Positions 13,372-32,153 of a stretch of 36,196 nucleotides of DNA are shown piece by piece (within the stretch, counting starts at the first letter, position 1; each line of letters opens with the position of its first letter). Below the pieces are notes generated by a model. It searched no databases. It was not told the origin of the DNA and was given only the letters and a program-made list of their open reading frames with translations. This stretch comes from Desulfobulbus propionicus (GTDB lineage Bacteria > Desulfobacterota > Dissulfuribacteria > Dissulfuribacterales > DYOW01). The translations under genes and the position numbers were made by a program. The stretch covers positions 1 to 36,196 of the forward strand of contig DYOW01000016.1 in NCBI GenBank assembly GCA_020720325.1, given 5' to 3'.

Positions 13372-13444
13372 GCCCTCGTAGCTCAGGGGATAGAGCACAG
13401 GATTCCTAATCCTGGCGCCGCAGGTTCGATTCCTGCCGGGGGCA
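13372..13444 (+). tRNA. tRNA-Arg (anticodon CCT)
   Basis: A full cloverleaf can be drawn. The acceptor GCCCTCG pairs with CGGGGGC. The D-arm begins GCTCAGGGGATAGAGC. The anticodon stem CAGGA/TCCTG holds loop TTCCTAA, with anticodon CCT reading AGG. The T-arm is GCAGGTTCGATTCCTGC. The discriminator is A at 13444 and no CCA is encoded (CAAA follows). The same window encodes a tRNA nucleotidyltransferase that could add CCA. It stands alone between lptD and the Fic gene, and tRNA 3' ends are common integration sites. Confidence 0.96.
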
Positions 13445-30847: not shown

Positions 30848-30876
30848 GTAATATATTTGTTAAAATAACTTGACAA
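30848..30876 (-). promoter_or_regulatory. Putative promoter of the DUF4390-ntrY-ntrX operon
   Basis: On the minus strand TTGTCA (30876-30871) and TATTAC (30853-30848) have a 17-base spacer. Its -35 overlaps the -35 of the plus-strand small-RNA promoter, so the two would compete or be co-regulated. Confidence 0.45.
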
Positions 30877-30897
30877 AAATATTTTTTTGGTTACAAT
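30870..30897 (+). promoter_or_regulatory. Near-consensus promoter of the candidate small RNA
   Basis: TTGACA (30870-30875) and TACAAT (30892-30897) are 16 bases apart, pointing away from DUF4390 into a 135-base gap that has no protein gene on the plus strand. Confidence 0.65.
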
Positions 30898-30904
30898 ATT
30901 ATTA

Positions 30905-31013
30905 AATAATTTTGAGATTAGAGTTTCCCCTGCTGGCCTCCAATTCCATCTCCACACACCTACCGACACACTCACCTCCATCCTTTCACACCCTCCAGCA
31001 GGGGATTTTTTTT
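30905..31013 (+). ncRNA. Candidate C-rich small RNA
   Basis: A promoter at 30870-30897 predicts initiation near 30905. Bases 30926-30936 (TCCCCTGCTGG) pair perfectly with 30995-31005 (CCAGCAGGGGA), followed by eight T (31006-31013), as in an intrinsic terminator. Between the arms is a 58-base loop (30937-30994) with 30 C, 14 A, 13 T and a single G, so it cannot fold on itself. CCTCC occurs at 30937-30941, 30975-30979 and 30992-30996, with further CTCC/ATCC words. These are complementary to GGAGG ribosome-binding cores. I infer a trans-acting antisense RNA of about 109 nt. I do not recognise a named RNA family. Its 3' part is antisense to the last codons of mltA. The large loop is unusual for a terminator. 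Confidence 0.6.
30926..31013 (+). terminator. Long-loop terminator-like stem followed by T8
   Basis: The 11-bp GC-rich stem closes a 58-base loop and is followed directly by eight T on the plus strand. On the minus strand no T-run follows, so it would stop only plus-strand transcripts. Confidence 0.55.
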
Positions 31014-32153
31014 AAGGAAAAAATAGAGGTTGCCGTGGCTTTTCATCTTTTCAGCCTTTTTTCCTGCAAGACTTCCTTCACCGAAATAAATATCCACCCT
31101 TCTTTGTCCTTTTATAGCAGCGCCTGTGTCCATATTTACGGTAAATCCCCTGAAATCAGGATTATCTATTATAACAGGCAGTCCAAATGGATAAAAAGCA
31201 GGGTCAAGGGCGATTGATTTTTCCCTTAAAAGCGTTAAGCCAGAGCTTCCTGTTGCGCCTTCTCTTTCCTGCCATTCAAAGAATATGTATCTGGGATTTG
31301 TTTTACAAGCCTGAATGAACTCTTCCTTCTTATTTTCCCAGATATTATTTATATTTTCCCATGTGCAATTGTCTTTGTTTAGGATATTTTTTTCTATAAA
31401 ATAATTGCAGATGCTTCCGTATTTATGACCATTATTTGCCGCATAATGTATGACTTTTTTTTTATTGTCATCAAATTTTAATATTCCAGAGCCTTGTATG
31501 TGCAGCATTATGCCTTCAACAGGTGTTTTTATCCATGCAAGAACAGGGGCGAAAACCGGCTTTTTTTCCCAGTCAATTTCATAACGCGTGTAAAAGGGCA
31601 TAACCTTGTTGTCCTTAATAATTCCCCATATATTTTTATTGCCCTGATAATCAAAGTCTGAAAGATTGATTTTTACAAGATCAGGAGGAGCGCCGTATAA
31701 CGGATATTCATATCCGCGCCCTTTTTCAAGGCTGGCGTTGATTTCAGGCATGAAATAACCTGTGAACAAAACTTTTTTTTTAAGTGTGTTTATTTTATAG
31801 AGATTAAAATTTTCAAAAAATTCCTTTTCAAAGGCATCAGAATCCAGTTTTTTTTTCATAAGCGCTGAAAAATCCCTTAATGTCTCAATAACAATATGTT
31901 TGGGGATAGATGTGTCTGCTATAATGATATTATCTTCTTTTTTCTGCTCAGTCTTTTTGATAAATTCATCAATCTGGTTTAAAAATTCTTTTTTATCATT
32001 TAATAAAGAAGAATGATAGGCAGAAAGGGATAATCTTCTGACGCTAAAAACTTCCGGTTTTATGAAATAGAAATAATATATATATAAACCTGATATCAGG
32101 ATAAAAAATAAAAAAAATAAAGGAAAAATTATGTAGATTCCCTTTTTTTTCAT
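30972..32153 (-). CDS. mltA: Membrane-bound lytic murein transglycosylase A
   Basis: MltA cleaves peptidoglycan glycan strands to anhydro-muropeptides. The 393-residue protein has an N-terminal membrane anchor (about 6-30) rather than a clear lipobox. The MltA domain shows FTGYFMPEINASLEKG, YPLYGAPPDLV and MLHIQGSG. A 3D domain has FFEWQEREGATGSSGLTLLREKSIALDP and the Asp-bearing VNMDTGAAIKGQRRVDIYFG. The family normally ends near the LYFFLKK stretch. Here about ten more residues (NPLLEGVKGWR) are encoded opposite the terminator arm and loop of the candidate small RNA. The ATG overlaps the mdh stop by ATGA, so the two genes are co-translated. Confidence 0.92.
   Translation of the reverse strand: MKKKGIYIIFPLFFLFFILISGLYIYYFYFIKPEVFSVRRLSLSAYHSSLLNDKKEFLNQIDEFIKKTEQKKEDNIIIADTSIPKHIVIETLRDFSALMKKKLDSDAFEKEFFENFNLYKINTLKKKVLFTGYFMPEINASLEKGRGYEYPLYGAPPDLVKINLSDFDYQGNKNIWGIIKDNKVMPFYTRYEIDWEKKPVFAPVLAWIKTPVEGIMLHIQGSGILKFDDNKKKVIHYAANNGHKYGSICNYFIEKNILNKDNCTWENINNIWENKKEEFIQACKTNPRYIFFEWQEREGATGSSGLTLLREKSIALDPAFYPFGLPVIIDNPDFRGFTVNMDTGAAIKGQRRVDIYFGEGSLAGKKAEKMKSHGNLYFFLKKNPLLEGVKGWR

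Follow-up and report, generated by a model that had tools for sequence, protein, structure and literature searches.

This locus raises the question whether a promoter-like sequence followed by a long-looped hairpin forms a small RNA gene and, if so, what its RNA would act upon. The first-pass annotation of the stretch of DNA analysed here (the window, 36,196 nt) had proposed an orphan small RNA, citing a promoter, a perfect 11-bp stem, a 58-base loop with one G and a run of eight T, and all of these were present (Table 1). TTGACA-16-TACAAT was joint best of the 53 promoter matches in the 14.2 kb scanned, and the plus-strand fold of the window copy outdid 198 of 200 shuffles. The 5′ end of the RNA was inferred from the -10 element and the 3′ end was placed at the T run. 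The gap, described as AT-rich, was not cleanly intergenic, since an mltA-like open reading frame on the other strand overlaps the RNA gene by 42 nt in the window and has its stop inside the loop; the RNA elements themselves were nevertheless real. The mltA-like gene is a neighbour and has no role as a functional part of the RNA. Its reading frame also crosses the 3′ arm of the stem (30972-31013) and encodes the C-terminus NPLLEGVKGWR, unlike in several relatives, where the mltA frame terminates at the stem or before reaching it.

Table 1. Positions in the window of the predicted small RNA gene, its parts and the overlapping gene.
Feature	Position	Strand	Basis
Sigma-70-type promoter, TTGACA-16-TACAAT	30870..30897	+	Sequence, 11/12 consensus; TTGACA upstream of homologues
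TTGACA; 16-nt spacer; TACAAT	30870-30875; 30892-30897	+	Read from sequence
Predicted small RNA, ~110 nt	30904..31013	+	Homologues in 43 genomes; conservation island
Stem 5′ arm TCCCCTGCTGG, closing/terminator stem (11 bp, perfect)	30926..30936	+	Covariation
Open C-rich loop, 58 nt, single G	30937..30994	+	No consensus inner structure; sequence conserved across families
Loop word 1 CCATCTCCA (AYCUCCA)	30946..30954	+	Paired copies in 8/11 clade representatives
Loop word 2 TCACCTCCATCC, contains CACCUCC	30972..30983	+	(T/C)CACCTCCAYCC kept in inspected homologues of both classes
Stem 3′ arm CCAGCAGGGGA	30995..31005	+	Sequence, alignment, covariation
U tract of intrinsic terminator, T8	31006..31013	+	Sequence; T-rich tracts in most homologues
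MltA/3D-domain lytic transglycosylase-like gene, convergent	30972..32153	-	ORF list; Pfam MltA and 3D

The significance of the locus was settled by the existence of homologues in 43 genomes of two classes, with one clear copy per genome, which confirmed that the arrangement is hard to explain by chance. Of 46 genomes from the window's order, covariance model R1 recovered the RNA in 28 (E ≤ 6e-17), and model R2, built with five distant copies included, recovered it in 15 of 41 genomes of the second class (E ≤ 2.3e-5); the order and the class are probably Dissulfuribacterales and Thermodesulfobacteria, respectively. In blastn comparisons with relatives the RNA appeared as a separate conserved island, and mean pairwise identity was 0.79 within it versus 0.50 and 0.47 in the flanks. 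The window copy was the most divergent of its order (75.8 bits versus 99-118). The RNA was missing in all sampled genomes of families f2 and f6 and in a few single genomes of the order, which for the two families suggests clade-level losses or strong divergence. At E ≤ 0.01, 395 genomes sampled across the phylum yielded nothing further except one weak match that was rejected. Weak matches in G282 (L106, coding-like sequence) and G174 (L090, an ordinary terminator) were both discarded. No copy was found in viral contigs, plasmids or phages; two chance matches in the viral contigs lay within a phage-like coding region and were discounted. The titles of public records matching the exact core were mostly those of Deltaproteobacteria/Thermodesulfobacteriota MAGs.

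Above the gathering cut-offs of Rfam 15 the window contained only a tRNA (13372-13444), and at permissive thresholds neither the window copy nor L004 matched near any cut-off. The RNA family appears to be new and previously unlisted, although an earlier ncRNA survey, which took in one Thermodesulfobacteria genome left unnamed in its main text, may hold an unnamed candidate (PMC8632094). On comparative grounds, the existence of a new and real small RNA gene and family at this locus is almost certain.

Covariation showed the stem to be selected as RNA on the plus strand. In a 33-sequence alignment that had been fitted to the covariance model, two-sided changes occurred in 6 of 12 pairs and 98.9% of cells were paired; the covariation score was reached by none of 500 shuffles, and sliding the stem partners abolished the signal. 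An independent MAFFT alignment of 22 sequences of the order agreed, with two-sided changes in 3 pairs. Some lineages had replaced most of the stem sequence and kept the pairing, the inner stem of family f72 being CCCCTGTGGG/CCCACAGGGG and the stem of family f39 GGCTCTCCGAGGG/CCCTCGGAGAGCC. Homologues also kept the promoter (perfect TTGACA upstream of 28 of the 30 copies checked). The expectation that relatives would combine a conserved stem with a variable loop was wrong, the loop proving ultra-conserved. In L085 (G305) a second 11-bp helix, GTATTTAGAGG/CCTCTAAATAC, extends the stem outside the usual one; no TTGACA-type promoter was scored for this copy, although TTGACG stands upstream.

The plus strand was identified as the RNA because the G.U pairs of the stem occur only there; on the minus strand they would turn into A.C mismatches. 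Read on its reverse strand, the loop carries several GGA words, which would suit a minus-strand, GGA-rich RNA (a CsrA decoy) or a DNA-level element, but such a reading is the least credible of those considered: besides the mismatches, in most homologues it is the plus strand that carries promoter and T tract, and the reverse-strand fold of the window copy showed no gain over shuffles.

The genomic position of the RNA was shown not to be conserved. Its neighbours in the window and many families are DUF4390/ntrY and mltA/mdh (Pfam for the window genes), in family f10 it precedes a secreted-protein gene, and in the second class it mostly precedes dnaJ; mltA adjoins it in only some lineages. This variety of neighbours speaks against both a cis element and an antisense RNA dedicated to mltA, and it indirectly supports action in trans. 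A cis-acting leader or attenuator of the downstream gene would agree with the short distance to a same-strand gene in f10 and most of the second class. It is already largely refuted by gene context and is highly improbable, as the RNA converges on mltA, with no same-strand gene after it, in the window as in most other families, and the downstream genes are unrelated among lineages. Scarcely more believable than the minus-strand reading is a cis-antisense function directed at the 3′ end of mRNA from the convergent mltA gene. The 42-nt overlap and the convergent mltA neighbour in several families would accommodate it, but the RNA, loop included, was kept in f10 and the second class without that neighbour. 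The description as an orphan small RNA was strongly supported, as the promoter is conserved, the stem covaries, a terminator is present and the gene does not depend on particular neighbours. The trans-acting part of the proposed translational regulator gained indirect support from the changing neighbours; conserved targets were not seen, as described below.

The loop was the most conserved part of the RNA, and comparison among families showed its sequence to be under strong selection. GGTCCCTCTGTACCATCTCCAACAAAGACGACCAACATACCCACCTCCATCCTTCTT was almost invariant across most families, as were ~40 nt of unpaired sequence in many, and the 22-sequence alignment gave no consensus inner structure. 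Eight of the 11 clade representatives, among them every one from the window's order, carried two AYCUCCA words spaced ~26-34 nt apart (shuffle P ≤ 0.005 in each), the second word lying within (U/C)CACCUCCAYCC. The window copy has lost the GACGACCA box and retained both words, which therefore are suggested to be the core of the loop; the middle box was also altered in G243 and f39. Between the loop start and the stem edge, CCTCC stands at 30937-30941, 30975-30979 and 30992-30996, the last of the three entering the stem; homologues had been expected to retain these words, but only the middle one was conserved. In f39 (L095, L096, L098, L099) the loop has acquired an additional inner hairpin of 7 bp, ATCGTCT/AGACGAT, which seems to be a remodelling specific to this lineage. 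A small open reading frame on the strand opposite the loop (MEVGMLVVFVGDG...) was rejected, its frame being broken by 1-2 nt indels between families.

The conserved words pointed to the anti-Shine-Dalgarno sequence. CACCUCC is identical to the 16S anti-SD core (16S tail seen in G243 and G305) and AUCUCCA is a second near-copy. The base after CCUCC is, however, conserved as A where 16S has U, so that canonical AGGAGG sites pair less well. At start regions the native loop performed no better than composition-matched shuffles (175 genes of its own genome and 363 of G243), shuffled loops being as low in energy as the native one in 4 of 25 cases for G000 and 9 of 25 for G243. For target prediction we used the window and 20 contigs of its genome, together with 400 kb from each of the genomes G003 and G243. 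The G+C-rich G003 yielded poor gene calls and was omitted from the statistics. The first-pass annotation's C-rich anti-SD loop was partly right, with one conserved core and its near-copy. A global anti-SD RNA dampening translation of many mRNAs would use the open C-rich loop and the 16S core, but the shuffle results, the A in place of U and the loss of the RNA in whole families make it improbable, and the earlier suggestion of a possibly global role was not upheld.

A restricted set of targets was sought by conservation. Complements of word 2 or the middle box were not seen conserved at start codons across relatives in a partial target search. The cheB-like, glgC-like and D,D-peptidase genes of the window named earlier as targets were unsupported, with no complementary start-codon site seen to be conserved across relatives. 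Sites for GGATGGAGGTGGG with one mismatch (43 examined) lay mostly in coding genes, off conserved start regions, and a long antisense partner via this sequence was rejected; their frequency was roughly double that of a reversed-pattern control, an excess given no weight because the control contains TAG. TATGTTGGTCGTCTT with two mismatches had no evident recurring site apart from the RNA itself, and TGGAGRT-N14-40-TGGAGRT occurred in the window's genome only as the RNA's own antisense. The top energy-ranked duplex matches were dismissed as composition-driven and GC-biased. Pairing of the loop with rRNA was likewise rejected, since even the strongest duplex within the rRNA region of G243 did not outdo shuffles.

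Hfq was found in none of the 46 genomes of the order and in none of five tested second-class carriers; a second model, with positive controls, scored nothing above cut-off among 13 carriers and relatives. By these searches the RNA does not belong with the Hfq-dependent small RNAs. This result, the negative searches for RNA partners, the repeated word at almost fixed spacing and the ~40 nt of almost invariant unpaired sequence, which is longer than one pairing seed would require, would suit a decoy. Here the words and the box between them would bind a C- or pyrimidine-preferring RNA-binding protein, with the stem only stabilising and terminating the RNA, in the sponge logic of CsrB or 6S with different motifs. 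Such a decoy, our second choice, is unlikely, as there is no candidate protein, the middle box is not kept throughout, and the match of the words to the anti-SD core favours RNA pairing. A little more doubtful still is an open loop that would use its two AYCUCCA words as a protein-binding platform instead of a pairing seed in these Hfq-less hosts, perhaps mimicking the 16S CACCUCC 3′ tail and titrating an RNA-binding or ribosome-associated protein.

The sequence has the features of trans-encoded small RNAs in general, namely its own promoter, an intrinsic terminator and no consistent gene association. By analogy, Yfr1 is nearest in logic, followed by the rhizobial RNAs with anti-SD loops. The cyanobacterial Yfr1 is a short, stand-alone RNA with an ultra-conserved, unpaired, CUCC-containing ACUCCUCACAC and a 3′ terminator hairpin (PMC2190773, PMC6778093). 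Both RNAs are stand-alone, carry a conserved unpaired CUCC motif and a terminator hairpin, and occur clade-wide with occasional loss. However, in Yfr1 two stem-loops flank an unpaired segment of 16-20 nt that contains a single 11-nt motif, whereas in the new RNA one stem encloses a loop of 50-60 nt in which AYCUCCA occurs twice; ACUCCUCACAC was absent from all aligned copies, and no Rfam match linked the two. The rhizobial 'cuckoo'-type SmelA075/SmelA099 carry CCUCCUCCC in each of 3-4 separate small hairpins, and their genes are present in several copies per genome (PMC3927594). They share unpaired, repeated anti-SD words in hairpin loops and variable stems with the new RNA, which has one hairpin, the word CCAYCUCCA and one clear copy per genome.

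C-rich unpaired regions also act against ribosome-binding sites in the Gram-positive RoxS/RsaE and RNAIII and the actinobacterial 6C/B11, which differ from the new RNA in sequence and architecture and showed no Rfam similarity to it.

Our preferred reading, to which we assign a probability of about 0.5, is a stand-alone, Hfq-independent RNA acting in trans on a restricted set of targets, with a logic like that of Yfr1 and no relationship to it. A strong vegetative promoter would transcribe the gene, and the stem of the single hairpin would double as terminator and hold the 50-60 nt loop open. The loop would display the two copies of AYCUCCA, of which the second lies within UACCCACCUCCAUCC; these would base-pair, without Hfq, to G-rich ribosome-binding regions in a limited number of mRNAs and prevent their translation. 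Through these two short words the RNA probably switches off particular mRNAs. Selective mRNA pairing, an even bet as a mechanism, remains our first choice.

Thermophilic sulfur bacteria have retained this RNA over a very long period. It represents a small RNA family deeply conserved across two classes of these bacteria without detected Hfq, with an unusually long invariant single-stranded loop. The family offers an entry point to post-transcriptional regulation in a phylum in which such regulation is poorly known, and its carriers likely include cultured species, in which direct testing would be possible.
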